A stretch of DNA of 39,477 bases from Thermoplasmatales archaeon (GTDB lineage: Archaea; Thermoplasmatota; E2; DHVEG-1), in NCBI GenBank assembly GCA_020341795.1, contig CP070836.1, positions 1,749,722-1,789,198 of the forward strand, read 5' to 3'. Positions 3,456 to 24,240 of this stretch are shown here, in pieces; position 1 is the stretch's first letter, and each line of letters begins with the position of its first letter. A program made the translations under genes and the position numbers. The notes beneath the pieces are model-generated. The model did not search any database. It was not told the DNA's origin and worked only from the letters and a program-made list of their open reading frames with translations.

Positions 3456-3632
3456 TTATTTCGAAATTAATTCCAATTGGATTAGACATTTTTCGTATGT
3501 TTCCTTTGCTTTTAATGCAATTTTTTCATCAATCTTTTTACCCTTGTGAATTATATCATTACTGATTTCATGCATTTTGTACACTCGGTTTGCTAAATTG
3601 ACATCAAACGCACGAAAAGCTCTTTCCTTAAA
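3456..3632 (-). pseudogene. C-terminal gene fragment, HEPN/DUF4145-like
   Basis: The minus strand here is open with no upstream start and encodes about 58 residues ending at TAA (3456-3458). The text AFDVNLANRVYKMHEISNDI then IHKGKKIDE, followed by a helix (ALKAKETYEKCLIQLELIS), reads like real protein. It resembles the C-terminal end of HEPN/DUF4145-type helical domains, whose core is often (R/S)N-x-x-IH-x-G. The family assignment is tentative. It overlaps the 5' end of the integrase remnant on the other strand, which suggests two fused gene scraps. An internal ATG at 3575 would give a 39-aa product. Confidence 0.35.
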
Positions 3633-4035
3633 TAGTTTCGGTAAAAGAATTGGTGAACATTTTATCCGAAGTCATCTTAAAGAATGTGCAAGTGAAGCAG
3701 GTATACAAAAAAATGTCTATCCTCATATGTTTCGGGCATCCTGCATAACGCACCTTTTGAATAAAGATATAAATCTACTAACAGTTCAGCACCATGCAGG
3801 TCACAGAGATTTTAGAACAACAATGAAATATAATAGATCAACACAGCAACAAATGAAATCTCAAATTGAACGAGCCTTTGTTATAAAATCAGAGATGATA
3901 GCCGAGGATAGAGCTAAAGCAGTATTTGATAAGTATTTATGGGGAGAAATCACAATGAGCGAACTTAACAAGTTGCTTGAAGTTATGCAACCAAAAGATA
4001 TAAATCCAAATTCCGAATTTACTGGATACGTATAG
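3577..4035 (+). pseudogene. Tyrosine recombinase/integrase, C-terminal remnant
   Basis: The 152 codons contain the C-terminal catalytic half of a phage-type tyrosine integrase. Visible are HMFR (His-x-x-Arg), HAGH (the late His/Trp position) and MKYNRS (the nucleophilic Tyr). The first catalytic Arg and the whole DNA-binding N-terminal domain are absent, and a stop lies just upstream at 3547. The first ~17 residues (from a TTG) do not look like integrase; similarity starts near NSFGKRIGEHFIRSH. After the Tyr an extra helix of ~50 residues follows. It sits 38 bp before tRNA-Cys, a classic integration target, and is read as the remnant of an integrated element. Confidence 0.75.
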
Positions 4036-4073
4036 GACGCATAGCTCCGTTTTGGCCACATAACTCCAAAATT

Positions 4074-4144
4074 GGGCGGGTAACAAAGTGGCTATGTGGC
4101 GGACTGCAGATCCGCATACGGGGGTTCAAATCCCTCCCCGCCCT
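4074..4144 (+). tRNA. tRNA-Cys (GCA)
   Basis: The acceptor stem GGGCGGG (4074-4080) pairs with CCCGCCC (4137-4143). The discriminator base is T (4144), as expected for tRNA-Cys. The anticodon arm GGCGGACTGCAGATCCGC has loop CTGCAGA with anticodon GCA. The T arm GGGGGTTCAAATCCCTC closes normally. No intron is present and CCA is not encoded. An integrase remnant lies directly upstream. Confidence 0.96.
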
Positions 4145-4332
4145 TTAGTTCCAACAGGATAGAAGAGTGTCAATAGATCCTAAAATGGTTGTTTCTTAAA
4201 TTTCAATGTTATTTATCTGATGAATGTTAGGATGCTTGATTATGATAATTTGGTAATTAAAAAAAAGTAACCGTTTTATAAGCTGGAATTAATTCAAAAT
4301 ATGAAGATATTGTAAAAAAAGGAGGAAAAAAT

Positions 4333-4758
4333 ATGGTAATGATTCTGGAAGATGTGAAAGTAAATGTGAAAGTAAAGCTTGCATTATTATGGGTAGCTTT
4401 AATGTTTTTTTATATATATAACGATGTATTCTCATTGTTTCAACCATGGCATGTCGCAGAGTTAGTAGAGGGACATTTAGAAGGTATACAATTTACTCAA
4501 GAACTTTTGTTCGGAGCTGCAATTTTAATGGCACTTCCGAGTATTATGGTTTTTCTGTCCTTGACATTGAAGGCTAATGTGAATCGCATGGTAAATATCA
4601 TAGTAGGTATATTCCACATTATTGTTTTGGTCAGTACATTGCTTGTACCAGGGGATCTTTGGGCTTATTATGCATTATATATGGTTTTTGAAGCAGTATT
4701 TATTTTACTAATTATCTGGACTGCATGGAAGTGGCCTATACAAACAACAAAATCCTAA
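4333..4758 (+). CDS. DUF6326-like four-helix membrane protein
   Basis: This 141-aa protein has four hydrophobic segments after a short charged start (LEDVKVNVKVKLALLW). The pattern FYIYNDVFSL in helix 1, the LPSIMVFLSLTLKANVNR turn and the closing WTAWKWP are what I recall of the DUF6326 family, which has no known function. An excellent Shine-Dalgarno site (AAAGGAGG) lies about 8 bp before the ATG, unlike many neighbours that look leaderless. Together with its place beside the integrase/tRNA scar, this fits an acquired gene. A TATA-like TTTTATAAG lies near 4273-4281. Confidence 0.65.
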   Translation: MVMILEDVKVNVKVKLALLWVALMFFYIYNDVFSLFQPWHVAELVEGHLEGIQFTQELLFGAAILMALPSIMVFLSLTLKANVNRMVNIIVGIFHIIVLVSTLLVPGDLWAYYALYMVFEAVFILLIIWTAWKWPIQTTKS

Positions 4759-4997
4759 TAGTGAATATTGCTTTAAGGAAATATGCCAGATCGATGCGAG
4801 TAGTTATTGAAGAAATAAAGTATTTTTTATCTGTAAAAACAAGTTCAAAACTTTTTCCCGCAAATATAAAGCACTGGCTAATTAAGTCCATGTCCAGATT
4901 CTAACAAATCAACAAGTCGTGTAACAAATCAACCGGTTTGAGCCCCATTTATAACATCGTGATCTAACAGAATAGTCAAATGTAAAATATCTTGTAT
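4759..4997. other. Intergenic, no gene seen; spaced direct repeat
   Basis: No credible ORF is present. The 12-mer TAACAAATCAAC occurs at 4902-4913 and again at 4922-4933, exactly 20 bp apart (two helical turns). It could be a decayed gene or an operator; nothing else supports either. Confidence 0.3.
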
Positions 4998-5200
4998 CTA
5001 AATCTTTTTATTAACTACCCAAGTTTTTCCAATAATTGACCCTAAACGAAAACATAAATTATGCATATCTTTAGGTAGTACCCAACCAGGAAATCTACTA
5101 ATCATTCCAATTAAAGTTACAACAGTTCCCATGCTCTGTTTTTTTTTAAAGGATTACGTATAATAGAACGCCAAAATAGCATTCTTAACCATTGAGGCAT
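4998..5200 (-). pseudogene. Small basic ORF broken by a frameshift in an A9 run
   Basis: On the minus strand an ATG at 5198-5200 begins MPQWLRMLFWRSIIRNPLKK. This frame is lost in a run of nine A and stops soon after. In the neighbouring frame the text continues MGTVVTLIGMISRFPGWVLP and then KDMHNLCFRLGSIIGKTW to a TAG at 4998-5000. Adding one A restores a single 67-aa protein: basic at the N-terminus, hydrophobic in the middle. I do not recognise the family. A sequencing or assembly slip in the homopolymer is as likely as a real mutation. It follows the 65-aa ORF by 34 bp on the same strand. Confidence 0.4.
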
Positions 5201-5234
5201 AGATTAAAAAGATTCATTTTAACCTTAGATTGTT

Positions 5235-5432
5235 TCACCCTAAAACAAAATCGCTTTCATCCTGAACAATTTTATTCTTTACAGATTGAATCTCTTGGTT
5301 TATTTCTTGAATTGATTTTGTATTTGTATTTTTTATCAATACTGGGAGTAATACTCTTTTGTTATCTAATCCCTTTTTAACTGGCATTGCAATAATTAAT
5401 ATTATCAAAGAGAAGAAGCTTGTTTGTTCCAT
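5235..5432 (-). CDS. Small hypothetical protein with N-terminal membrane segment
   Basis: This 65-aa ORF starts at ATG 5432 behind a good Shine-Dalgarno site (AGGAG, about 9 bp upstream). It has one hydrophobic segment (FFSLIILIIAMPV), then a polar tail of charged helix (SIQEINQEIQSVKNKIVQDE). It could be a membrane-anchored or secreted small protein. The overlapping + strand ORF at 5192-5380 lacks such support. No family is recognised. Confidence 0.4.
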   Translation of the reverse strand: MEQTSFFSLIILIIAMPVKKGLDNKRVLLPVLIKNTNTKSIQEINQEIQSVKNKIVQDESDFVLG

Positions 5433-5682
5433 AAAGAAATCTCCTAAAAATATAAAAATTATAGCATCATAAAAATTTTAATTTCCATTGATATTTATGT
5501 TTAATTTAAATAATTTCTAATTATAGTATATATTATATTTTGATATGATTGTAAAAGAATGTTAAGTTGTTAATAATGTGATAAAAAATGTTTTGCTAAT
5601 GTATTTTAGAATTAGTAAATAAAAGAACCAATAAATCCTGATAAAATATAAATTGGACTTAAAACAACAGATTATAAAAACA

Positions 5683-5694
5683 CTATTTATATAG
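5683..5694 (+). promoter_or_regulatory. TATA-like box for the rhomboid gene
   Basis: CTATTTATATAG lies about 60 bp upstream of the ATG at 5750, predicting a start near 5715 and a leader of ~35 nt that contains the ribosome site TTGGAG. The stretch 5433-5734 holds this promoter and the upstream region of the divergent small ORF; nothing else was seen in it. Confidence 0.5.
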
Positions 5695-5749
5695 CAATAC
5701 TATACACAATGACTTTTATACTTATAGAACATAATTGGAGAAAAAGAAA

Positions 5750-6721
5750 ATGGAAATAGTTATTTTACCGTTATCTATTATATCAATATTTACAATTGTT
5801 TTTATTATTGCTGCACTCTTTTATGCAATTTACAAGAAATGGATGATGACATATGCAATTATAGCAATTAGTTTTGTTGTTTTTGTAATTAGTCTTATTT
5901 TTAGTGAAGAAATTGTTGGTGAGCTTGCTTTTAGGCCGATTTATTTAACGGTTGAATTTTTTCCACAACTTTATACATTGTTTTCTTCGATGTTTCTTCA
6001 TAGCATTGTCAATCCTTTGCATATTATTTTTAATATGTTTATTTTTCTTCTGATTGCTCCAAATTTCGAAGATAGAATTGGTGCAAAGAAGTTTTTAGCA
6101 ATATATATTATAACTGGTTTTTGTGCAGCTATTGCTCATTCATTGGTTGCACCATTTTTTTCAAATGATCCAAATATTTCAAAAATTGGTCTAGTTGGTG
6201 CATCAGGTGCAATTGCTGGTATTCTTGGTGCTTATGCATTCTCATATCCACGTGATATGGTGTTTTTCCCTGTGATTTTTATAATCAGAATGCCTGTTAT
6301 TTATGCTGGTATATTTTTCCTTGCGATGAACACTTTTTTTACAATCATGCCTGGGGAAACTAATGTTGCATATTCAGCCCATGTTGGTGGTTTCATAGCC
6401 GGTATAATAATGGGCGCTATTTTTATCAGACGAAAAGGTCCTGCTTTAAATGAACCAATAACTAAAGAACAAAGAATTTATGATTCCTATACGCAACAAA
6501 AACCTAGTAAGATTGATTTTTCAGAATTAAAAAAACTTGCAACAACTCGTGAACTTAAAGAAATGCTTGTAAAAATTAAGGATGAAAACGTTCCACAGGT
6601 AAGAGAAATTTGGCTTGAGCATTTCCTTGAAAAAACAATATGTCCAAAATGTGGAAGCCCACTTAATCACTTTGATGAAAAAATATGGTGTGAAAAGTGT
6701 GATTTTAAAAGTAAATATTAA
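5750..6721 (+). CDS. Rhomboid-family intramembrane serine protease with C-terminal zinc ribbon
   Basis: The protein has 323 residues from the ATG. Seven hydrophobic helices carry the rhomboid signatures: H-x3-N (HIIFN) in TM2, GASG with the catalytic Ser (Ser152) in TM4, and AHVGG with the catalytic His (His211) in TM6. Rhomboids cleave substrate proteins inside the membrane. After a charged cytosolic linker of about 70 residues the protein ends in a zinc ribbon, C-x2-C ... C-x2-C (CPKC ... CEKC). A TTG at 5735 gives five more residues, but the GGAG at 5737-5740 is placed to serve the ATG at 5750. Its stop is 8 bp from the stop of the presenilin-like gene. Confidence 0.92.
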   Translation: MEIVILPLSIISIFTIVFIIAALFYAIYKKWMMTYAIIAISFVVFVISLIFSEEIVGELAFRPIYLTVEFFPQLYTLFSSMFLHSIVNPLHIIFNMFIFLLIAPNFEDRIGAKKFLAIYIITGFCAAIAHSLVAPFFSNDPNISKIGLVGASGAIAGILGAYAFSYPRDMVFFPVIFIIRMPVIYAGIFFLAMNTFFTIMPGETNVAYSAHVGGFIAGIIMGAIFIRRKGPALNEPITKEQRIYDSYTQQKPSKIDFSELKKLATTRELKEMLVKIKDENVPQVREIWLEHFLEKTICPKCGSPLNHFDEKIWCEKCDFKSKY

Positions 6722-6729
6722 ACTACAAT

Positions 6730-7662
6730 TTAAATGCTCAAACCCACAATTTTACCATAAATAATAAAACTGGAAATCAAATAACCGCCTATTGCACCGC
6801 TACAAAGAAGAGGTAAACCTGCTTGTGGTTTCCCTTTCATTACCGATGTCATCAAAATGAGAAAACCTATGAGTGTACCAAGAATTACCGAAAGTGCAAT
6901 TGGAAGTCCATTTTCGATATGTGAATATGCTGCTGCAACAAGTATTCCTGGCATCACAATATCTCCTAGTCCCATGAAAAATGCGTCTCTTTCTTCTCCT
7001 TCTTCAATTTGTTCTTTCAGACGTCTTGTCTCTTTAATTAGTGAATATTTTCTTATCTTTGGCACAACAAGAAGTATCGGTAGTTTAAGATCCATTACAG
7101 TGTCTGCAAGATCAATCATATGCTTGGTTTTGTACACAGATATCGCATCATAAATCGCAAGACCAATAAGCAACAAAATTACAAGTAAAATGCCAAGCGA
7201 TATTCCAAAAATAATAATAGCTCCAACACCAATAATTATCCCTGATAAATCAATAACATACCACTCTGGATATTTATAAAGAATAATAACAAGTATTATC
7301 GCAAGTAAAATAGATAATCCAAGTACGATATATGGATAATTTGGAAATATAATATTTAAAACCGGTAAGAAAAACGCATAAAACGAGGTATAACCAACCG
7401 CGAACAATATTATAAATTGTATAATTTTATCTTTCCAATACCTTGCAATAAGCAATATTACAACTGTAATTGCAAGCATTATGACAATTATCTGAAGAAT
7501 ATTTATTGGATTGTTAATATCCTCACCCCAGACTTGCTCAACACCACCTCGAATTACAAAAGGTTCAATTAGAATAATCACTAGACCATAGATTAACAAA
7601 AATAATAGACCCATAATTGCTACTGCAAAATACTCTTTTTTATCTTTTTTAAACATAAACAT
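6730..7662 (-). CDS. Presenilin/signal peptide peptidase-like (A22) intramembrane aspartyl protease
   Basis: This 310-aa protein has about nine membrane helices. It has the paired catalytic motifs of the family: YD in TM6 (Asp172, in AIYDAISVYKT) and G-x-G-D in TM7 (Asp234, in GLGDIVMPG). The PAL-type motif follows as GLPLL (282-286) in the last helix. The charged loop between the catalytic helices (EETRRLKEQIEEGEER region) is typical of archaeal presenilin homologues. The role is cleavage of membrane proteins or signal peptide remnants. It is convergent with the rhomboid gene and 42 bp downstream of the Na+/Ca2+ antiporter on the same strand. Confidence 0.93.
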   Translation of the reverse strand: MFMFKKDKKEYFAVAIMGLLFLLIYGLVIILIEPFVIRGGVEQVWGEDINNPINILQIIVIMLAITVVILLIARYWKDKIIQFIILFAVGYTSFYAFFLPVLNIIFPNYPYIVLGLSILLAIILVIILYKYPEWYVIDLSGIIIGVGAIIIFGISLGILLVILLLIGLAIYDAISVYKTKHMIDLADTVMDLKLPILLVVPKIRKYSLIKETRRLKEQIEEGEERDAFFMGLGDIVMPGILVAAAYSHIENGLPIALSVILGTLIGFLILMTSVMKGKPQAGLPLLCSGAIGGYLISSFIIYGKIVGLSI

Positions 7663-8783: not shown

Positions 8784-9593
8784 ATGCCAAAAGGAAAATT
8801 AACTTTTATTGGACTTGGACTTTATGATGAAAAAGACATATCAGTTAAAGGATTAGAAGAAATAAAAAAATCAGATAATGTATATGCAGAGTTTTATACA
8901 GCAAAACTAGTTGGTGCTAATTTTAAAAATTTAAATAAAATTACAGGTAAAAAAATTAATATATTAACTCGTGAACAAACTGAAAAAGGAGATATTATAT
9001 TAAGCTCTGCAAAAAATCAAAATGTTGTTTTTTTAACAGCTGGAGATCCAATGACAGCAACAACTCATATAGATATATGTTTAAGAGCAATAAAACAAGG
9101 TATTTTTACAAAAATAATTCATGGTGCAAGTATTGTAACAGCAGTACCTGGGTTACTTGGTCTTCAAAATTATAAGTTTGGACGGACAACAACTCTTGCG
9201 TATCCTGAAGGTGATTATTTCCCAACAAGTCCTTATGATGTTATTATGGATATTAAAAAAATGGGTCTACATACATTAGTTCTTCTTGATATACAAGCTG
9301 AAAAAGAAAAATATATGACTGCTGGAGAAGGAATAAAATATCTTTTAAAAATGGAAGAAAAAAAAGGTATGAAATTATTTAATAATAATAGTATCATATG
9401 TGTTGTAGCCAGTGCTGGTTCAGACAAACCAATTGTAAGAGCAGGAACTATGCAAGATATGCAACAAATGGATTTTGGCCCTCCCCTTCATAGTATTGTT
9501 ATCCCAGGAAAGCTTCATTTCATGGAAATAGAAACACTCATGGTACTTGCACAATTACCTGCACAACAGGGGGAAAAATTGCAAAAAGTATAA
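8784..9593 (+). CDS. dphB: Diphthine synthase
   Basis: This enzyme uses S-adenosylmethionine to methylate the modified histidine of elongation factor 2 (the second step of diphthamide synthesis). The 269-aa protein opens with LTFIGLGLYDEKDIS, and the SAM-binding loop FLTAGDPMTATTH and IIHGASIVTAVPG follow. These blocks, the LGLQNYKFG segment and the usual family length identify DphB clearly. Its substrate EF-2 is encoded 4.3 kb downstream on the same strand with the diphthamide histidine present. The next gene (HerA-like) follows after 43 bp and is probably cotranscribed. Confidence 0.95.
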   Translation: MPKGKLTFIGLGLYDEKDISVKGLEEIKKSDNVYAEFYTAKLVGANFKNLNKITGKKINILTREQTEKGDIILSSAKNQNVVFLTAGDPMTATTHIDICLRAIKQGIFTKIIHGASIVTAVPGLLGLQNYKFGRTTTLAYPEGDYFPTSPYDVIMDIKKMGLHTLVLLDIQAEKEKYMTAGEGIKYLLKMEEKKGMKLFNNNSIICVVASAGSDKPIVRAGTMQDMQQMDFGPPLHSIVIPGKLHFMEIETLMVLAQLPAQQGEKLQKV

Positions 9594-9636: not shown

Positions 9637-11502
9637 ATGCCACAGAAAGAAAATGTTGTCGGTTATATTTATGGAGATGTAGGCAGTACAGATTTTAATT
9701 TTGCAGTAAATGGACAGAATTTACGTAAGTTTGACTATATTTATGCACCACATAAAGAAGGAAATATTCTTGCACAAATAATGGATATACGAGAAATATC
9801 TGATTTAAAATTTGAAGATGCAACCATGATGATGCATAGCGGTGAGATGCCTACTATTCGCACAAGTCTTTCTGCCTATGCTGATGTAATTGGATATCGT
9901 GATAAAAAAGGACTTCTTCAATCTCCAAAGTCTCCGTTTGGATCTGGGACTGCTATTATGCTAGCTAATGAAGACCTTATTCGTCATGTATTAGGTCTTA
10001 GTGCATCAAAAGAAAACGGTGCATACCTCGGTCTTCTAAAAGGACATAATCTTAAAGTTTTTTTAAATGTTGATTCTCTTGTTCAAAAACATATTTGCAT
10101 TTTAGCTAAAACTGGAGGAGGTAAGTCTTATGCTTGTGGAGTACTTGTTGAAGAAATGATGAAGCATAAGATTCCTATGGTTATAATTGATACTCATGGC
10201 GAGTATCATAGTCTTACTAAACCTAATAAAAATCGCAAAGATCTGAAAAATATGACTCGTTTTGATGTTAAAAACAAATCATACTCATCACAAATAAATG
10301 AATATTCGCCGATCGGTTCACGGGGAAATATTAAACATTTAACTTTGAAAGGAGTGAATTTGAAAGCAAGAGAAATTATTGATCTTTTATCAGCAAAATT
10401 ATCTGGACCACAAGTTGGAGTTCTATATCAAGCAATTAAAGAACTTAAAGAGTATAAAAATGTTTACAATCTTCGTGATATTATTGACTCTGTAAATAGG
10501 AGTAAAAGCAATGCACGTTGGAATGTTATTGCATCTCTTGAATCTCTAGATTCAATAGGTGTTTTTAATGATACAGGAACAAATACTTTAGATATCGTGC
10601 GAAATGGTAAATGTACTCTTATAAATATGAAAGGTGTACCACCTGATGTTCAAGAAGTTGTAGTTGCACGTCTCACCAAAGAGCTTTTTGATGATCGTAA
10701 AGCAGGAAAAATTCCACCATTTCTTATGATTGTTGAAGAAGCACATAATTATTGTCCAGAAAAAGGTGTAGGAAAAGCTGTATCATCAGGTATACTCAGA
10801 ACAGTAGCATCTGAAGGTCGTAAATTTGGAATGGGTCTATGTATTGTAAGTCAACGTCCTGCAAAAGTTGATAAAAACATAATTTCCCAATGTAACACTA
10901 ACATTATCTTAAAGGTCACAAATCCTAATGATCTCAAAGCAATTATTCAGAGCGTTGAGGGATTAACCACTCAGACTTATCGTGAAATACAACGTCTACC
11001 AATTGGTGTTGCACTAATTTCAGGTTCAGGACTTCAAATGCCTGTTATGACAGAAATACGGACTCGGGAAACCAACCATGGTGGTAAATCAGTAAGTATA
11101 TCTGGAAAAGGTGAACAACAGATATCACAGGAACCAAGAGTTCCAAAGGGTCCAGCACCACCTCCAAGGATAAATGCACCTCCAATTAAAACTGAACCAG
11201 ATACAAAAACAGAGCCAATTGTTAAAACAGAAACTGCTACTGATAAAGCAAAAACCGTAAATCGAGTTGCAAAAAGACTTGGATGGGTTGAATCAAATGA
11301 TCCAGATGAAGCAATTAAAATCCTTACTAAAGAAGCAGAGAAAATGAATGAAAACGTTTACAAATATCTTGAGTCATTAGCAAAGCTTGGTACAAAGTTC
11401 TGCTTTGTTGAAAATCCTAACTGCCCAAGTTGTCCAATGAGTCAAGGATGTCTATACAAGGCAACACATCAAACTCAAAAGAAAAGATTTTTTAAAAGAT
11501 AA
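9637..11502 (+). CDS. HerA-like hexameric DNA-translocating ATPase with endonuclease III-type Fe-S tail
   Basis: The protein has 621 residues from the ATG at 9637, which a GGGG-containing site precedes; an in-frame ATG at 9547 lies inside dphB and is unlikely. The N-terminus is a HAS-barrel-like beta region. The RecA-like core has Walker A TGGGKS (159-164), the DTHGEY strand and Walker B FLMIVEEAHN (Glu367-Glu368), with SQRP as sensor; all are HerA/FtsK-family traits. A Pro/Thr-rich linker (~495-537) leads to a segment beginning VNRVAKRLGW and ending C-x6-C-x2-C-x5-C (Cys589, 596, 599, 605). This is the exact cluster spacing of endonuclease III/MutY. HerA works with NurA in DNA end resection; no nurA, mre11 or rad50 is in this window. 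Confidence 0.9.
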   Translation: MPQKENVVGYIYGDVGSTDFNFAVNGQNLRKFDYIYAPHKEGNILAQIMDIREISDLKFEDATMMMHSGEMPTIRTSLSAYADVIGYRDKKGLLQSPKSPFGSGTAIMLANEDLIRHVLGLSASKENGAYLGLLKGHNLKVFLNVDSLVQKHICILAKTGGGKSYACGVLVEEMMKHKIPMVIIDTHGEYHSLTKPNKNRKDLKNMTRFDVKNKSYSSQINEYSPIGSRGNIKHLTLKGVNLKAREIIDLLSAKLSGPQVGVLYQAIKELKEYKNVYNLRDIIDSVNRSKSNARWNVIASLESLDSIGVFNDTGTNTLDIVRNGKCTLINMKGVPPDVQEVVVARLTKELFDDRKAGKIPPFLMIVEEAHNYCPEKGVGKAVSSGILRTVASEGRKFGMGLCIVSQRPAKVDKNIISQCNTNIILKVTNPNDLKAIIQSVEGLTTQTYREIQRLPIGVALISGSGLQMPVMTEIRTRETNHGGKSVSISGKGEQQISQEPRVPKGPAPPPRINAPPIKTEPDTKTEPIVKTETATDKAKTVNRVAKRLGWVESNDPDEAIKILTKEAEKMNENVYKYLESLAKLGTKFCFVENPNCPSCPMSQGCLYKATHQTQKKRFFKR

Positions 11503-11515
11503 ATGAAAGAGTGAA

Positions 11516-12604
11516 ATGTATAAAAAAAACCTACCAAAATTCATAGTTTTAATCTTTATAGTTTTAATAATAACAGGATGTTTCTCAGAAAATAATCTTA
11601 TTATTTATGAATCCCATGCAACAAAAATAAGTTATAGAATAACCTATGGATACCAGATTAATTGTAGCGGAGAAGGTGAATTAACAATTCTTTACGATTG
11701 TGATACTCCTGAAGTTTTAAAAGGTACAACTGAGATTGAAAATATATTAGATAAAACCTATTTTTCAAAAACAATTGCAACACATAACGATATAATAAGC
11801 TGGAATATTACAACAACAAATTGTACAAATTACAAACTTGGTTTGACTGCTAATATTGTAGCTGAAAGCTCTGTAATCTCCGATTTAAATGGTGAAAACG
11901 CACTTAATATTCAACAGATAAAAGAAATACGTCCCGATTTAATAAACAAGTATTGTAACCTTCAAGCAAATGAGACAATAACGTTTATTAATCCAACTGA
12001 TTTAGATATAATTAACCTAGCTTATGAACAATATGAAAAAGCAAACTCAGATAATGCATTAATTGTTGCAAAAGAATTATTTAAATGGTTAAAGGAAAAA
12101 ACAATATATACAACACATATTGATAAAAATAATGTTCAAACATCATCATATACACTAGAAAAATGCACTGGTGACTGTGATGATTTATCATTTTTATATA
12201 TCTCATTATGTAGAGCTGTAAAAATACCAGCAAGATTTATAAGAGGTTTTTTAGTTGAAGATAATAACGCTATTCCACATGCATGGACTGAAGTATACGT
12301 AGGTGGAGGAATTGGCAACAACGGCTGGATCTCGGTTGAATGCGCAGGTACTGCTAAAGGAGATAATAAATTACAATATGAATTACATCAAAATTTTGGT
12401 ATAGAAAGTGCAAATTATCTCAGATTATTTATTGACGATGGATCAAATGAATCTCTCATTGAATCATTCAAAGGTATATCATATCTAGCAGATTCAACAC
12501 TTGATATTGACTCTCCAAGCTCATTAATAAAAGTTCAAAACTACATGGAACTTGAGTCACATGAACTACATGTAGATAAAAACAATATTAGAAAATATAG
12601 ATAG
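11516..12604 (+). CDS. Transglutaminase-like lipoprotein
   Basis: This 362-aa protein has a signal peptide and a lipobox (LIITGC, Cys22), so it should be exported and lipid-anchored. The C-terminal half carries a transglutaminase/papain-like fold: GDCDDLSFL (Cys221), PHAWTEVYV (His255) and WISVECAG. The third catalytic position, usually Asp, is Glu275 here. Such proteins cleave peptide or amide bonds or cross-link proteins at the cell surface; the substrate is unknown. Its ATG is 13 bp after the HerA stop, suggesting cotranscription. The N-terminal ~150 residues are an unassigned beta-rich domain with several Asn-x-Ser/Thr sites. Confidence 0.82.
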   Translation: MYKKNLPKFIVLIFIVLIITGCFSENNLIIYESHATKISYRITYGYQINCSGEGELTILYDCDTPEVLKGTTEIENILDKTYFSKTIATHNDIISWNITTTNCTNYKLGLTANIVAESSVISDLNGENALNIQQIKEIRPDLINKYCNLQANETITFINPTDLDIINLAYEQYEKANSDNALIVAKELFKWLKEKTIYTTHIDKNNVQTSSYTLEKCTGDCDDLSFLYISLCRAVKIPARFIRGFLVEDNNAIPHAWTEVYVGGGIGNNGWISVECAGTAKGDNKLQYELHQNFGIESANYLRLFIDDGSNESLIESFKGISYLADSTLDIDSPSSLIKVQNYMELESHELHVDKNNIRKYR

Positions 12605-16581: not shown

Positions 16582-17862
16582 ATGCAAGCAGTTAAGATAT
16601 TAGCAATTATAGTAATCATATCATTGTGTTCATCACAGGTTTTATCAATATCTCCAAAGATAGAATCAAATTTTTCAAACAAAGAGTTACCCGATAGTCA
16701 CGTTATAGAAAATGTACCATATTTCTCTCAAACAGAAGGATATTTCTGCTACTATGCATCAATTGCAATGATTTTTAGTCACATGGGACTTAACACTGAT
16801 CTTGAAGAAATAATATTTCTTGATGGTATTGGATATACACATTCTTATATTAGATCTGAAAAAATTATTAAATCAACACATTATGCTAGCTTAGATTTTG
16901 TTTTTAATTTATTTGGCGTTGAGGAAACCTGGTGGTATCCAAATAGAACATTATCAGATGAACAACGATGGAATTTATTTTTTTCAAATCTAAAAGAAAA
17001 TATATCAAATAACAAACCAGCAATTACAAGAGTTGATCCTTTTTCAATGGGCTCACTTCGAGATCAATTCATAATATCAGATAGTTTATGGAATGCACTA
17101 TTTCCACCTAGTCATCACCTTATTGTAATTGTTGGTTATGATGAAATTAATCAAAGTATCTGTTATCATGATCCAAATGCTGGATACTATGGTGATGGTT
17201 CCTTTGGTAATTATGCATGGATAGATATTACAGATTTTCAAAAAGCAGTTAAACTGGGAACATGGTCAGATTATCTTTTAACAACGTTCATTCAAACCTC
17301 AGATAGTTTTTCAAAAGAAGAAAGATTTGAGCAAGCATTTAAATTAAATATAGAAAAAATTAAAGGCAATTATCAATCTAATCAGAGTTTATTTGGTATA
17401 AATGCATCAAAAGAATTAAAGAAAGCATTTTCAGATGAACAACGTGTTAAAACAATTAAAATTTATAAAAAACTGGAAGATGCAGGATTTAGCTATATAT
17501 TATATGAAACATTGCAGAAACTTACAAAAATTTTATTTTCAAATAAAGCAAATATTTTTGATATCTTTATGGTGGGAAAAAGAATTCCCTTTGAAACAAC
17601 TAGTAATATAATCAAACAGATAGCAGAGTTTTTAGAAAACAACAATTTTCATCAAGATTTATGTACAAATCAATCCTCTTTTTTAAAACAAGAATCAGTA
17701 CTTTGGGCTAAATTTTCAAATTATTTCAAGGTTTTTAAGAGAAAAGGTAAACTAATATCAGATTTTCAAGCTAATATCATAATTAATAAAATGGAAAATG
17801 TGTTAGATGAAATTATTATTATTCAACAGCAAATTATAGATGATGGACAAGATTATTTTTAA
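16582..17862 (+). CDS. Secreted C39/papain-like cysteine peptidase-fold protein
   Basis: This 426-aa protein begins with a signal peptide (about residues 1-22). Residues ~45-230 look like the C39-like papain fold: VPYFSQTEGYFCYYAS with Cys56 preceded by a near-Gln region, HHLIVIVGYD (His178/179) and YHDPNAGYYGDG (Asp197). This gives a plausible Cys-His-Asp triad for an extracellular peptidase or amide-bond hydrolase. The remaining ~200 residues are helical and unassigned. No transporter domain is present, so it is not a classic bacteriocin exporter. Its 3' end overlaps the mcm 3' end by 4 bp in convergent orientation. Confidence 0.7.
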   Translation: MQAVKILAIIVIISLCSSQVLSISPKIESNFSNKELPDSHVIENVPYFSQTEGYFCYYASIAMIFSHMGLNTDLEEIIFLDGIGYTHSYIRSEKIIKSTHYASLDFVFNLFGVEETWWYPNRTLSDEQRWNLFFSNLKENISNNKPAITRVDPFSMGSLRDQFIISDSLWNALFPPSHHLIVIVGYDEINQSICYHDPNAGYYGDGSFGNYAWIDITDFQKAVKLGTWSDYLLTTFIQTSDSFSKEERFEQAFKLNIEKIKGNYQSNQSLFGINASKELKKAFSDEQRVKTIKIYKKLEDAGFSYILYETLQKLTKILFSNKANIFDIFMVGKRIPFETTSNIIKQIAEFLENNNFHQDLCTNQSSFLKQESVLWAKFSNYFKVFKRKGKLISDFQANIIINKMENVLDEIIIIQQQIIDDGQDYF

Positions 17863-19973
17863 TATTCAGTAATTTTGTATTTACCATGGACTGGTTCATA
17901 AATCTGACCTTGACGCTTAAGTCGGTCAAGTGCTTCTTCAACCTTGCTTGATTCAAGACCCTCGATTTCTGCTTCCTGTAAGATATCTCCACGAGTAGCA
18001 TTACCATCTTTTGATTCATTACCAAGTCGTTGAATAATATCCATAAGTGTTCGCATTCGGTCATGTTGGCTATGAGAGATACCAGTTGCAATAATATCAA
18101 TATCAAACCGTCCTGTTTCACGGTCCATCCCAACTCGTCGAAGATATTGGTCTATAATATAGATTGCACGTTTTGCATCATTAACGGTAACCTCTTGGCT
18201 AAGTCGAATCTTAGCACTAGCTTCAGAAAGTCTCACAAAAGCTTCTAGTTGACGTGGTGTAAAAGTAACTGACTCTTCTGATGAACTACGGAAATCAACA
18301 TAATAATTTTTAAGTATCTCAAGTGCTTCATCAGTCATAACTGGGAAAATTTTTCTTTTTGAATAAGCAATATATTTGCGCAGAAATTCTGGATTATATA
18401 TTGGTTCAACAATTTTCATAAACTCTTCTTGCTCTTTTTTCTTATGTTTTGATTTTTTAACACGCATAATTTGCTCGGTTAATTCTCCACCTTTATGTGT
18501 CCTTAGAATATGACTTGCTAGATCAGTGTCTCTTTCACGATTTGGTTTATCAAGAATTGAAAAAATAAGATCAAAACGAGAAAGAAGGGCAGGAGGCATA
18601 TTAATCTGTTCATGAATTGGTAGAAATTCATCAAAACGTCCAAGTTTCGGATTTGCAGCAGCAAGAATTGAGCATCGGGATTTAAGCGTTGCATTAATCC
18701 CTGCTTTAGCAACAGATATTTCTTGTTGCTCCATAGCTTGATGCATACTACTTCTATCACTTTCTTCCATCTTATCGATCTCGTCAATACATGCAATACC
18801 CATATCAGCAAGAACAAGTGCTCCTGCTTCTAGTGTCCATTGACCTTCACCAAATTCATCACGTACTGCAGCAGCTGTTAGTCCTGCTGCTGATGATGCT
18901 TTTCCAGAAGCATAAATACTTCGAGGGGCTAGTTTTGAAAGATAAACCAAGAGCTGTGATTTAGCAGTACCAGGATCTCCTACAAATAAAGTATGTATAT
19001 CACCACGCATACGAGTTCCATCTGGCATATTTTTTGCAAGACCTCCAAATAGTTGTAGAACAAGTGCTTCTTTTTCAATATCCATACCATAAATGGTTGG
19101 GGCAATACTTTTTTTCATTTTATTATATAAATCAGGATCTTTGCTTGTTTTTAGGATTTGTTTTTCATCTTCTGGTGTTATATCAACTTCTTCAAATGCT
19201 AGCTCTTGTGATTCAATACAATTTGCATCCATTGTCTTATCAAAACTTGTAAGTCTAAATGTACCACGACGTCTCTGCATACTATGCAGAATACCATTTA
19301 CAATTACTCTGTCACCAGGTGCTATTTCACCAACAAGGTCATCTTCAAGAAAAACACTTATACGTTCTGGTTGTGCACCACCACGTAATCCTTCAGGATT
19401 TTCCTGAATTTCAATTTTTTGTGAATCAATGAACTGTGAAAGAGTTGGTAGAAGCTTAAATGATGATAAACGTCCACATCCACCCTGATCTTCATAGCAT
19501 TCAGAGGGTTCTTTTAGAATATCTTCTTCTTGTTCAATTCGTATTATCGCTCCACATTTTGAACATTGGAAGGCACCAACTGTGAGTTTAGGTCTAACTT
19601 CTGTACGTTTCTTAACAAGTCCATCAATTGCCATAAATTTTCCAAGATGATTAGCACGAATATTACGTATTATAATTCGATTAGTATCAGGCAAGTTTTT
19701 AATACGAAAATGTAGAATAAGTTTAGATTCAGATGCAACATCTATATTTTTTAAAGCTTCTTCAGCATTATAAACAGCTTTATAAGGTTGATTTAGAAGA
19801 AGTTCTGCAAGTTTTGGATCAATCTCATCAATATCCCAATAATCAACATATAAACTTCGTTTATTAGGATATTCAAGTGCTACTGTTTCTATTTCGGATT
19901 TGTAATGTTCCTCTAAAAACTTCTGCCATTGAGCTACTAAACTCTCATCCTTCAATAACCGTACCAAAGTCAT
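17859..19973 (-). CDS. mcm: Replicative helicase MCM
   Basis: The protein has 704 residues from the ATG at 19973, which a G-rich site (GAGGGG) precedes; an earlier in-frame codon at 20012 would add 13 unlikely residues. Parts in order: N-terminal helical domain, OB fold with zinc-binding cysteines (137, 140, 159, 166), then the AAA+ domain with Walker A GDPGTAKS (332-339), Walker B CIDEIDKM (395-402) and arginine finger LLSRFDL. A C-terminal winged helix follows (GDILQEAEIEGLESSKVEEALDRL, shortened here to its core). It unwinds DNA at the fork. No intein is present. A TATA-like box lies at 20019-20028. Confidence 0.97.
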   Translation of the reverse strand: MTLVRLLKDESLVAQWQKFLEEHYKSEIETVALEYPNKRSLYVDYWDIDEIDPKLAELLLNQPYKAVYNAEEALKNIDVASESKLILHFRIKNLPDTNRIIIRNIRANHLGKFMAIDGLVKKRTEVRPKLTVGAFQCSKCGAIIRIEQEEDILKEPSECYEDQGGCGRLSSFKLLPTLSQFIDSQKIEIQENPEGLRGGAQPERISVFLEDDLVGEIAPGDRVIVNGILHSMQRRRGTFRLTSFDKTMDANCIESQELAFEEVDITPEDEKQILKTSKDPDLYNKMKKSIAPTIYGMDIEKEALVLQLFGGLAKNMPDGTRMRGDIHTLFVGDPGTAKSQLLVYLSKLAPRSIYASGKASSAAGLTAAAVRDEFGEGQWTLEAGALVLADMGIACIDEIDKMEESDRSSMHQAMEQQEISVAKAGINATLKSRCSILAAANPKLGRFDEFLPIHEQINMPPALLSRFDLIFSILDKPNRERDTDLASHILRTHKGGELTEQIMRVKKSKHKKKEQEEFMKIVEPIYNPEFLRKYIAYSKRKIFPVMTDEALEILKNYYVDFRSSSEESVTFTPRQLEAFVRLSEASAKIRLSQEVTVNDAKRAIYIIDQYLRRVGMDRETGRFDIDIIATGISHSQHDRMRTLMDIIQRLGNESKDGNATRGDILQEAEIEGLESSKVEEALDRLKRQGQIYEPVHGKYKITEY

Positions 19974-20018
19974 TCCCCCCTCAAAAATCCGAAGGTAAAA
20001 AAATGATAACAAAATATT

Positions 20019-20028
20019 ATTTATAAAT
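20019..20028 (-). promoter_or_regulatory. TATA-like box for mcm
   Basis: ATTTATAAAT lies ~50 bp before the mcm ATG and just after the SRP RNA 3' end. It predicts a start near 19998 and a ~25-nt leader, so mcm need not depend on read-through from the SRP RNA. Confidence 0.5.
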
Positions 20029-20055
20029 ATTTTTAGTAGGTCACTGAATGTTTTT

Positions 20056-20384
20056 TAGCGGGTGTGGAAACTCCGCGAGTGGTTGCACGTGGCAAAGATT
20101 GACTTCCCAGATGCATTCTCGACCCCGTTAACCCTTCGAGCATCAGCAGTTTGCGGTAAGGCTGCTCACTTCCGTGCCTCACCCGGTTCCCGCAACGAAG
20201 ATGTACATATAACCCTCCAGTTATATGTGGTCATCACCTCTAATCCCAAAGGACAAGGTCTCATAGTCAACAAATGGATCAATAAATGCTCGACGCATCG
20301 CCTCTTGGGTTCGACCTCAGCATGAAGGCGATTTCTGAAAACAGGGAACGCCTACCTCCCCAGTCTATTCCACACCTTTCGCCA
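20056..20384 (-). ncRNA. ffs: Signal recognition particle RNA (7S RNA)
   Basis: This ~330-nt minus-strand gene is far more GC-rich than its surroundings. Read in the RNA sense, the 5' GGTGTGGAA pairs with the 3' TTTCCACACC (helix 1 of archaeal SRP RNA). Helix 6 is a 9-bp hairpin ACATATAAC/GTTATATGT closed on a GGAG loop (loop at 20215-20218), the GNAR tetraloop bound by SRP19. Helix 8 reads GTGAGGCAC-GGAA-GTG-AGCAGCC (GGAA at 20170-20173) with the conserved asymmetric loop bound by the SRP54 M domain. Ends are set by helix 1 and are good to a few bases. It starts 12 bp after the stop of the 85-aa ORF. Confidence 0.95.
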
Positions 20385-20395
20385 AACCATTTTGT

Positions 20396-20653
20396 TTACA
20401 GTGAACGTCGCATAATTGTGAACAAATTACGAAAGAATTGATAAAATATTAAAGCAAGGGCGATAGCAATAACAACCAGGTTAATACTTACGCTTATCCA
20501 AAGATCTCTGCTACTAGTATCAGGATTTACCAGAAATGATCTAACAAGTAGTCCTATGAAGAGTGCTACTATGAAAAATAGCACTATGTTAATGTACACT
20601 GACCACTTGTACCAAGTTTTTTTGCTAGTCTGACGAATTATGTTTTCAACCAT
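20396..20653 (-). CDS. Hypothetical two-helix membrane protein (85 aa)
   Basis: This short protein has two hydrophobic helices (INIVLFFIVALFIGLLV and ISVNLVVIAIALALIFYQFF) separated by a polar loop (NPDTSSRDLW) and flanked by basic ends (MRRSL at the C-terminus). No family is recognised. The start has a Shine-Dalgarno site (AGGAG ~9 bp upstream) and a TATA-like ATTTAAATATAA further up, so it is likely real. It ends 12 bp before the SRP RNA 5' end, so the SRP promoter must lie inside this ORF or the two are cotranscribed and processed. Confidence 0.6.
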   Translation of the reverse strand: MVENIIRQTSKKTWYKWSVYINIVLFFIVALFIGLLVRSFLVNPDTSSRDLWISVSINLVVIAIALALIFYQFFRNLFTIMRRSL

Positions 20654-20726
20654 AATTATTAACTCCTAATAAACACATTGCAATAAATAAAAGGTTATAT
20701 TTAAATTATGCTTAAATTACAAATAA

Positions 20727-23700
20727 TCAGAAGAAATCATCAAGTTTAGTGGTTTTTACTTTGTCACTAATAAATAATGAATCAATAGATTTTTCAACAA
20801 GAACAATACGTTGACGAGCATAAGGAGAAATATTATATCTTTGTGCAATTTCCTTTGAAATTTCAAGGTATTTTTTTACAGATTTCTCATGAACAGTAAG
20901 GGTGAGCTTACCGTTACATTTGTTACAAACACCTTGTAAAGGTGGACGTCTATAAGTAATATTACAAGTAGGACATCTAACTGATTGTTTACTAAAAGCT
21001 CTAAGATTTCCAAGAATATCAGGTAGAAAATGCTTTTCGATTACTTTATAGGCAACATCTGCTTCATCAACAGCTCTTATCTTTGCAGCAAGGCTAAGTT
21101 GTGCATTCATTTTATCCATCATTGTTTTGAGGGTTTTATAATTAGACATCTTTGGACCCTCAGATATATCATCTGTATCATGTGTAAAACCAAAATTTTC
21201 AAATTGTAGTGTTGTACCAAGATGAGAACCTACTAAACCCATAATTTGTTCAAGGTCTTTCGAATGTTCATGACGTAAAGTAGCCTCATAAAAATCCAAT
21301 GGATAACGAGAAAGTATATCCACATTATGTGCTTCCTTGTCTACCTCTGATGGATCAATACGCGTAGTAAGGATAAGTGGTAAATCCATTTTACCTCCCC
21401 GTTTTTCAGGGATGTAAGAATGAGAAAAATTCAAAAGAGCATCCATAAGAAGCATTAAACCATCTTCATCACCATCTGCATTCCGTCGTTTTGATGCATG
21501 ATAAAATGGATGTGCATAGCAAACTTGTGCATCTGTAAATCCAATAATTCGTGAAAGGGATCCTGCAGATGTATGAGGTGCAAGCCCAACAGTTAGATGA
21601 CCTGTTAGATTTTCTAGTTTTTTTAATTTATAAAACCGATTCATGTCATAGAATTTCCATAACAAATCGTCAATGAATTTAGTAACCTGTACAAAATATT
21701 CAGCACATGATTTTGATATTATTACATCTTGTACTTTCAACTCAACGATTTGATCATCAGATACAAGGTCATTATTCAGATAATCTTTTGTATATCCTAG
21801 CTCTTTAAGTCTTTCAATTGATACATTTATTTCTTTTGGTTTGAAATGAGTAAGTGGTGCATCTGTCATATCAAATCTTATTGTTCCATCTTTAAATACA
21901 TGTACTCCATGTTTTGCTCGAAGTATTCCTTTTTCAAGAGGTTCTGGTGTTTTATGTTTTGATATTGTTCCTATAACACCCTTAATTGTTTCTGGGAGAG
22001 TTCTTTCTTTTATGTTTTCTTGTGCAATTTTTAACTCTTCTGCAAGGTTTATTTCAAGTGTTTCTATGTATCCATTCCCCATATCTGTGTGATTTCCACA
22101 ATTGCAGAATAGCCGGTGAGTTTTTTTTCTACAATTTGAACAGTATCTTACACCTGCTTCAATTTCAATTTTTCCAAGTTCTGCAGCATTGCGTATTAGT
22201 CTTTGATTACCTCCATAGTTTCCAATTGGGAAAAGCACATGCGGTGGTGGTCTCATTTTTCGAGCTGCTGCTTTTTCTGGTCTTCCCATTCTGGTTCCAA
22301 TTCTAAAAGGTGCTCGTGGTTGAATACGTATTCCGGATTGTTTTGATACAAGATTTACTGGATTTTTTTCATTTGTTGTTTTTTGATAACGATTTGATTC
22401 AACAATTTTTCCATTTTTAACATCAAGTCCGCAACATTTGATTAATGGATATGAATATCTGTTAAGAATAAGAGTATCATATTTTTGACTATGGAGTGCT
22501 CCCAGGTTGATCAATATTTGTTTTATATCATCATTTTTTGGTAATAATAATGAATTATTTGTTAAGTTACCATTTTCTAAGATATATTTTGATAAATGTA
22601 TTATATCTTCAACCTTTATATCATGCCAAAATAAGTTATAATAAGGATGCAATGGGATTTTATATTTTTTAGAAAGCCCATATGCTTCATCCCAGAGTGG
22701 TTTATGTAAATCAATATCACTTCCAAAATCATTTATTATTTTAGTTAGAGTTTTTTCATCTGCTTGTTTGATATTTTTAAATGTATAATCTTTAGGTAAA
22801 AGATCTAATTTCTTTTGAAGATCTTGTATCCACCACTCATAAACATAACTTGAATCTGGAAGAAGAGCATTATTTTCAATAAATTCACCAAAAGGAATAA
22901 GTATTTCACCAAGATCTATTATTTTTTTAATTTCATTTTTTTTAATATCTTTAAGCGTGTTTAATTGTACAAGATTTCCATTTCGAAGAAGACATATCGG
23001 ACCTTCTATAGTGTTACATGGCGTTCCAATTGTCCCCTTTCCAGGTCTTTCAGTTTTTAACTGAGTTCCAACAGCAATAAAACCATCAAGTATGAACATG
23101 GATGCAGGATTAATCGCAGTAGATGCAAGACCTGCGGTTCTTGCACGACCATATCTGAGTCTAAAACCACCTTTTCTTGATGGATGAGAAAAAACAGGAC
23201 GTCCTGCAATTACATCTCCTATATATTTTGAAGAAGAATCAATTACTGGAATTTCATCTGTTTTTTTTTCATCACTTATAGTTTTAGATTTAAATATATC
23301 TAAAAAATCCCATTCTCTAAGTTTTAGTTTTTTTACATGTTTTAATATTTTTGGAGCCTTTAAACATAAACCTTCAGCGATAACTAGACAAGCTCCTCCA
23401 CGTAGACGGTTTGTACCAACACGAGGCAGATCTCTATATCCAGTTACTTCTTCATCTTCTGTACCTTCACCGTTTATACATATTGGGCAACCTCTAACGA
23501 TTTTATCTATTTCTTCAATACTTGGAGTATATTGTAGATGTTGTGCTCTCTTGTATAAAGGTATTTCTTCCTTATATCTTTCAATTTCTCCATCTGTTGG
23601 TATATATGGTCCGATTTTCATTTCACGACGTACTATATCTGCGATTAGAACACTCATTGCCTGTCCGGTTCCACCGGCTGATCTTATTGGTCCTGAAAAA

Positions 23701-24146
23701 TATAAGTCAATAAAATTAGTTCCATCATTATTGTTACCTAGTTTAACTTCAGCAATCCCCTCAAGTGGTGCAACAAGAACTCCTTCTGTTAGTATCGCAA
23801 GGCCTGTTCTAATTGCTTGGTCTAATGCTTCTTCTGATGTTTTGAAATTATATTTTTTTTCCTTTACAATTTCTTTTGCTATTTCAATAGATACTAATTC
23901 TCTATTTCCAATTTTTTTTGTTACTTGTCTGATTTTTGGAGCGATATTTTTTGGTCCGACAAGTTGTTCTACTCGTGCTGCAAGATCAAGTGCTTGAGGT
24001 ATTTCTACATTAAATTCAGGGTCAAGTCCTTTCTTTCTTGCTTCAATAGCTATTTCATAGCATAAATCAATGTTTTTTTGTAAATTTTGAAAATACTCAT
24101 GCATTTCTGAGCTAGCAACAATATTTTTCGAAAGGTCCCCACCCAT
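20727..24146 (-). CDS. polC: DNA polymerase D large subunit DP2
   Basis: This is the catalytic subunit of archaeal PolD, 1139 aa, full length and without an intein. The N-terminus (MHEYFQNL ... LARVEQLVGP type) and the GPIRSAGGTGQAMSVLIADIVR block are family hallmarks. The active-site segment reads RRNADGDEDGLMLLMDALLNFSHS (given here only as its key NADGDED, near residue 889), with the paired catalytic aspartates. Late zinc cysteines are CPTC ... CNKC. The protein ends TTKLDDFF, a PIP-like PCNA-binding tail that lacks the usual Gln. It lies 94 bp downstream of DP1 on the same strand. Confidence 0.97.
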   Translation of the reverse strand: MGGDLSKNIVASSEMHEYFQNLQKNIDLCYEIAIEARKKGLDPEFNVEIPQALDLAARVEQLVGPKNIAPKIRQVTKKIGNRELVSIEIAKEIVKEKKYNFKTSEEALDQAIRTGLAILTEGVLVAPLEGIAEVKLGNNNDGTNFIDLYFSGPIRSAGGTGQAMSVLIADIVRREMKIGPYIPTDGEIERYKEEIPLYKRAQHLQYTPSIEEIDKIVRGCPICINGEGTEDEEVTGYRDLPRVGTNRLRGGACLVIAEGLCLKAPKILKHVKKLKLREWDFLDIFKSKTISDEKKTDEIPVIDSSSKYIGDVIAGRPVFSHPSRKGGFRLRYGRARTAGLASTAINPASMFILDGFIAVGTQLKTERPGKGTIGTPCNTIEGPICLLRNGNLVQLNTLKDIKKNEIKKIIDLGEILIPFGEFIENNALLPDSSYVYEWWIQDLQKKLDLLPKDYTFKNIKQADEKTLTKIINDFGSDIDLHKPLWDEAYGLSKKYKIPLHPYYNLFWHDIKVEDIIHLSKYILENGNLTNNSLLLPKNDDIKQILINLGALHSQKYDTLILNRYSYPLIKCCGLDVKNGKIVESNRYQKTTNEKNPVNLVSKQSGIRIQPRAPFRIGTRMGRPEKAAARKMRPPPHVLFPIGNYGGNQRLIRNAAELGKIEIEAGVRYCSNCRKKTHRLFCNCGNHTDMGNGYIETLEINLAEELKIAQENIKERTLPETIKGVIGTISKHKTPEPLEKGILRAKHGVHVFKDGTIRFDMTDAPLTHFKPKEINVSIERLKELGYTKDYLNNDLVSDDQIVELKVQDVIISKSCAEYFVQVTKFIDDLLWKFYDMNRFYKLKKLENLTGHLTVGLAPHTSAGSLSRIIGFTDAQVCYAHPFYHASKRRNADGDEDGLMLLMDALLNFSHSYIPEKRGGKMDLPLILTTRIDPSEVDKEAHNVDILSRYPLDFYEATLRHEHSKDLEQIMGLVGSHLGTTLQFENFGFTHDTDDISEGPKMSNYKTLKTMMDKMNAQLSLAAKIRAVDEADVAYKVIEKHFLPDILGNLRAFSKQSVRCPTCNITYRRPPLQGVCNKCNGKLTLTVHEKSVKKYLEISKEIAQRYNISPYARQRIVLVEKSIDSLFISDKVKTTKLDDFF

Positions 24147-24208
24147 GTGTCTCCATCTCTAAAAAAGTAGGTAAAATTCTTAAATGCAAAAAAAACGTTT
24201 AAAGTTTT

Positions 24209-24220
24209 GTATATATTAAA
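24209..24220 (-). promoter_or_regulatory. TATA-like box for DP2
   Basis: TTTAATATATAC on the minus strand sits between the DP1 stop and the DP2 ATG. It predicts a start near 24187 and a ~40-nt leader, so DP2 may have its own promoter in addition to read-through from DP1. Confidence 0.4.
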
Positions 24221-24240
24221 AAATAAAAAATTTTGGATTT

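Follow-up and report, generated by a model that had tools for sequence, protein, structure and literature searches.

A HerA-family ATPase with the C-terminal half of an endonuclease III-type domain in Thermoplasmata

The window considered here, a stretch of 39,477 nucleotides from a Thermoplasmatales archaeon (contig CP070836.1), contains a gene for a HerA-family ATPase that continues beyond its ATPase core into a linker and a cysteine-containing C-terminal tail (Table 1). An in-frame TTG at 9547 overlaps the upstream dph5 gene, and homologues do not point to it as the start. The residues on which the first-pass annotation based its proposal are found where it had placed them: VNRVAKRLGW begins at 11257 (V541), the motif C-x6-C-x2-C-x5-C is formed by the codons of C589 (11401), C596 (11422), C599 (11431) and C605 (11449), and the stop codon ends at 11502. 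The gene order dph5-herA-transglutaminase is conserved across families f1 to f3 and partly in f4 and f9. A search of gene neighbourhoods for partners returned dph5, the transglutaminase-like gene and translation genes, and among these neighbours there is no nuclease and no obvious partner.

Table 1. Features of the tailed herA gene and its immediate neighbours, in window coordinates
Feature	Position	Strand	Remarks
dph5-type methylase gene (Pfam TP_methylase)	8784..9593	+	conserved upstream neighbour
HerA-family ATPase gene with C-terminal Fe-S-type tail	9637..11502	+	621 aa, ATG start
HerA core, residues 1-490: probable HAS-barrel (8-60) and DUF87/RecA-like ATPase	9637..11106	+	core ends where tailless orthologues stop aligning
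Walker A, residues 157-164, AKTGGGKS	10105..10128	+	sequence
Walker B acidic pair, E367-E368	10735..10740	+	invariant in 32 aligned proteins
Pro/Thr/Lys-rich linker, residues ~491-535, predicted disordered	11107..11241	+	pLDDT, dN
Endonuclease III/MutY-type C-terminal Fe-S half-domain, residues ~536-609	11242..11463	+	profiles, fold
Position of the glycosylase catalytic Asp, Ala538	11248..11250	+	alignment with Nth
Stretch with invariant Arg543 and Arg547, equivalent to MUTYH Arg241 and Arg245	11263..11277	+	43/43 tails
Presumed [4Fe-4S] ligand loop, C589-x6-C596-x2-C599-x5-C605, with invariant Pro594	11401..11451	+	43/43 tails
Basic C-terminal peptide ending KKRFFKR (KKG[LF]F[KR]R in most relatives)	11452..11499	+	
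Transglutaminase-like protein gene	11516..12604	+	conserved downstream neighbour

Other parts of the window hold genes for two adjacent intramembrane proteases that are kept together in many relatives, one presenilin/signal-peptide-peptidase-like (6730-7662, minus strand) and the other rhomboid-like (5735-6721, plus strand), as well as a short C-terminal fragment of the phage-integrase family (3577-4035, plus strand). The genes for MCM and two DNA polymerase D subunits (DP2 and DP1-like) lie near each other at 17859-25905 on the minus strand, downstream of rpsL-rpsG-fusA. Elsewhere in the same genome, nth is broken by a 100-base run of N (G000:C1:373500-378500, locus 2281-2380) that leaves only the C-terminal ~130 residues readable; complete nth genes are present in relatives.

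The core of the protein is recognisable as HerA by several comparisons. It matches Pfam DUF87 at 1e-35, above the curated cut-off, and the solved HerA of Saccharolobus solfataricus (PDB 4d2i) at 2.8e-34 over residues 100-505; the match to NCBIfam HerA has an E-value of 9e-43 and a score of 146 bits, far under the equivalog cut-off of 970. The Pfam HAS-barrel model aligns with residues 8-60 (E=2.4e-4; 21.6 bits, below the cut-off of 25.2), where beta-strands are predicted in the full-length model. Alignment of 32 proteins shows no variation at G160, G162, K163 and S164 of Walker A or at the two Glu of Walker B, so the motor is probably active. With the HerA of Saccharolobus and that of the Thermococcus kodakarensis HerA-NurA complex (PMC12977600) the protein shares the DUF87 RecA-like ATPase, intact Walker A and B motifs and probably a HAS-barrel start; it differs from them in the linker and the Fe-S-type tail that follow the core.

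The tail is homologous to the C-terminal [4Fe-4S] half of endonuclease III and MutY. By itself it matches the NCBIfam models for MutY (1.1e-7) and Nth (1.4e-3), and the tails of 19 of 19 family representatives match MutY below 0.01. The profile built from the tails retrieves endonuclease III as its best match in the PDB (1.7e-9), with ROS1 and MutY behind, and hhalign pairs it with Nth proteins of the same lineage at 98.6% and 8.8e-16, the latter being an E-value for one single pair. For the window tail sequence alone, the short Pfam model EndIII_4Fe-2S gives no significant match. Against UxuA, Prefoldin, UPF0179 and similar Pfam models the tail scores below the cut-off and inconsistently among relatives, and these matches were rejected.

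Structure prediction leads to the same family. The AlphaFold model of the tail alone, which like the full-length model excludes the cluster, consists of four helices with a mean pLDDT of 90; at full length the tail reaches ~95 and the linker stays below 50 over residues 484-531, so that the tail is predicted to be a folded stand-alone unit after a disordered linker. In a Foldseek search of the PDB, the best 49 matches are all chains of Nth, MutY, thymine-DNA glycosylase or ROS1, with probabilities up to 1.00 and TM-scores by query length of ~0.5-0.65; the domain has only ~75 residues, and the E-values are accordingly weak, 0.015 at best. With endonuclease III and MutY (PDB 9nzc, 1p59, 1orn) the tail has in common the C-terminal helices, the C-x6-C-x2-C-x5-C loop, the cluster-holding Arg and Pro residues, and the fold. 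The plant glycosylase ROS1 (PDB 7yho), which is among the tail's best sequence matches to solved structures, differs from the tailed HerA in keeping the glycosylase catalytic half and in having no ATPase. Sequence, profile, fold and phylogeny all support the fusion of HerA to an endonuclease III-type Fe-S segment that the first-pass annotation had described, and profile and fold comparisons, whose failure was to have counted against the proposal, both returned this family.

The first-pass annotation had spoken of an endonuclease III-type domain that lacks the catalytic Asp. The C-terminal Fe-S half of such a domain is indeed present and residue 538 is Ala, yet the loss extends further: similarity to the glycosylases starts at the Asp helix, and the N-terminal half, with the HhH and the catalytic Lys region, is absent. 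Across relatives the catalytic position is Ala in 39 of 43 tails, Thr in two and Asp in two; the latter belong to the divergent families f8 and f9, in which the other glycosylase half is missing too. It is almost certain from these absences that the tail is without glycosylase activity. Relative to endonuclease III/MutY, the hydrophobic faces are also re-patterned: where Nth has hydrophobic residues ahead of the Asp, the tails have Lys and other polar ones, and at several positions of the helices polar and apolar character are exchanged, as would be expected of a domain that has lost the half against which it packed.

The residues expected around a cluster have a different history. Conservation of the four cysteines in homologues had been set beforehand as one point on which the proposal could fail, and they are kept in 43 of 43 tails, as are Pro594, Arg543 and Arg547. 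The only departure in spacing is in genus g27 (L039, L040, L116, L117), in which the first Cys loop is one residue shorter (C-x5-C-x2-C-x5-C). In human MUTYH, the metal cluster is lost upon substitution of Arg241 (R241W), Arg245 (R245H/C), Pro295 (P295L) or the ligand cysteines (C290W, C306W) (PMC12000561); with equivalents assigned by a constant numbering offset in each half of the alignment, R241, R245, C290, P295 and C306 correspond to Arg543, Arg547, C589, Pro594 and C605. Asp236 and Asn238 form, together with Arg241, the path between cluster and active site in MUTYH (PMC12000561), and their positions are not conserved among the 43 tails. Since the cluster-holding equivalents are invariant and these two positions are not, the alignments indicate that the residues holding the cluster have been preserved and the catalytic ones are gone. 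The tail is thus very likely to bind a [4Fe-4S] cluster. The tail is also under purifying selection: in close pairs its dN is 0.00-0.085, compared with 0.05-0.34 for the linker, whose dN exceeds those of both core and tail.

The surface that MutY uses to touch DNA is altered. The MutY loop that links the first and second cysteines makes electrostatic contact with the DNA backbone (PMC12000561). Its counterpart has a net charge between 0 and -3 in every tail but one, which is at +1, whereas Nth proteins of the lineage range from 0 to +3. Because this loop is neutral to acidic in all tails but one, sequence comparison does not support DNA binding in the MutY manner, and the DNA-binding role put forward in the first-pass annotation stays a suggestion. 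The stretch past the last cysteine is basic (+3 to +10), usually ending in KKG[LF]F[KR]R, and these C-terminal residues could contact DNA or a partner.

The tail was found on HerA in 53 of 390 genomes of the phylum, all in one class, at a threshold that could miss very divergent tails; it is thus a clade-wide feature, which was one of the questions raised at the outset. The 53 assemblies include four single-contig genomes. All named records with the tail come from metagenome assemblies of Thermoplasmata or Thermoplasmatota, apart from a few whose label says no more than Euryarchaeota or uncultured archaeon; at 42 of 42 named loci the helix motif and the Cys motif lie in one frame, and a Walker motif is present except in three fragmentary frames. 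Contigs were scanned with a profile from the closer set of tails, the 19-row alignment being too diverse for a scan. When the class is searched with the tail profile, HerA frames score 87-140 bits and glycosylases no more than 55 bits. Seven bacterial matches from the contig scan are glycosylases that retain the Asp-Thr-His catalytic motif and were set aside, and a scan of viral contigs gave no relative of the tail. Orthologues without the tail, 457-519 residues long, occur in families f7 and f10. In a tree of the core, from which the tail columns were excluded, a single change separates tailed from tailless proteins (support 77/73, not strong; one f6 protein running off its contig was left out of the count), a topology that fits a single origin, by one gain or one loss.

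Literature searches on HerA combined with Fe-S or endonuclease III, covering open-licence papers, yielded no description of this fusion, in agreement with the first-pass annotation, to which no described HerA with such a tail was known. The tailed HerA represents a domain architecture new to a known family rather than a system of a new kind.

HerA proteins of HerA-NurA resection complexes occur in genomes that encode NurA, usually in an operon with herA, whereas no NurA was detected in the window genome, which answers the earlier question of whether nurA lies elsewhere. Among 43 genomes of the order NurA was detected only in G021, a bin of 65% completeness that yielded no tailed HerA; NurA is also present in G051 and in the majority of genomes of families f7 and f10. 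In these sister families NurA adjoins another HerA, which stands on a very long separate branch of the core tree, very distant from the tailed HerA, and in G045 such a NurA-type HerA adjoins mre11. This second HerA is absent from the four single-contig genomes with the tail. The tailed protein is the only HerA found in the window genome, and therefore the sole HerA-type candidate there for end processing, a role it may conceivably fill. Most genomes of the order encode Mre11. In the window genome mre11 lies together with a rad50-like gene ~10 kb before the window (G000:C1:1734000-1745500, locus 3542-6783), with no herA or nurA beside the pair; the rad50-like gene was recognised by its ATPase domain, the Rad50 hook search having matched only 3 of 14 controls.

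The explanation that we consider best as a whole, and on balance probable, is a HerA-family translocase with a tethered, glycosylase-derived Fe-S docking half-domain. The predicted assembly is a hexameric dsDNA translocase in which each subunit bears a tail on a flexible tether of ~45 residues, with up to six tails per ring. The cluster would hold a small rigid docking module; by keeping DNA or a partner protein beside the ring, this module may help to recruit or load the translocase, and loss of the cluster would disable it. T. kodakarensis HerA carries the NurA dimer on its HAS-domain face and takes in DNA at the opposite one (PMC12977600); a tail on such a tether could reach either face. 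The specific proposal that the tail is a cluster-stabilised, non-catalytic docking module, whether for DNA or for a partner protein, is put forward more tentatively, as a reading that may well prove wrong.

The main rival is a redox or oxygen sensor, in which oxidation or contact with DNA would alter the state of the [4Fe-4S] cluster and thereby turn the translocase on or off. The tail has the fold and ligands of Nth/MutY, for whose cluster a part in DNA-mediated redox signalling has been proposed (PMC12000561), and Arg543, the equivalent of the MUTYH Arg that connects the cluster with the DNA backbone, is invariant. However, the redox proposal for Nth/MutY depends on DNA binding and the DNA-touching loop is not basic in the tails, and the ~45-residue disordered linker leaves no obvious allosteric path from tail to ATPase; the sensor is accordingly given something over a one-in-five chance in our judgement, which makes it rather unlikely. 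Slightly less likely still is a bolder version in which the freed Fe-S half serves as an autonomous, cluster-dependent sensor of DNA state or redox for the translocase ring and the tailed HerA, with a different nuclease, replaces a lost HerA-NurA.

If the four cysteines bound zinc instead, the tail might be a structural knuckle that merely aids folding or assembly, an idea compatible with the detachment of the domain from the remaining glycosylase and with the slightly shifted spacing in g27; all other tails nevertheless keep the ligand spacing, and the residues that hold the cluster in MUTYH are kept, so that we regard zinc as improbable. Retention of glycosylase or AP-lyase function in an active base-excision module would accord with the homology, and a related archaeal HhH-GPD protein with Ser at the catalytic Asp position reportedly repairs alkylated DNA (PMC11754123). 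In the tails, though, it is not the Asp alone but the whole N-terminal half with HhH and catalytic Lys that is missing, and the same genomes carry separate Nth-type genes, which makes this possibility very remote. More remote still is a fusion or assembly artefact, or a decaying nth remnant read through from herA: such cases are occasionally expected in draft metagenome assemblies, but a tail conserved in 53 assemblies, single-contig genomes among them, with invariant cysteines and low dN, refutes it.

DNA motor proteins with a [4Fe-4S] module are familiar from the Fe-S helicases and helicase-nucleases, including DNA2, AddB, XPD/DinG and the bacterial Bad, and the tailed HerA resembles them in this respect. 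Their clusters reside in other folds, within nuclease or helicase domains, and to our knowledge none joins an Nth-type module to a HerA ring. What the [4Fe-4S] cluster does in endonuclease III and MutY is a matter of continuing debate; here evolution has separated the cluster half from the catalytic half and retained it for another purpose, and it so offers a natural minimal construct for the function of the cluster alone. The lineage also presents a branch of HerA that apparently works without NurA, in archaea that retain Mre11-Rad50.

There is some further variety among the HerA relatives. Linkers are far longer in families f4 (L041, 185 residues) and f8 (L043, 112 residues) than the ~38-52 residues found in the order, and several f1 genomes contain a third group of HerA-like ATPases (L163, L164, L171) of ~430 residues that are ~25% identical to the window protein. 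The tailless orthologues of family f10 (L047-L049) end in a basic-aromatic peptide, for example RRGLFSRFGRQ, that resembles the KKGLFKR of the tailed proteins, as if the Fe-S domain had been inserted ahead of a pre-existing C-terminal motif.
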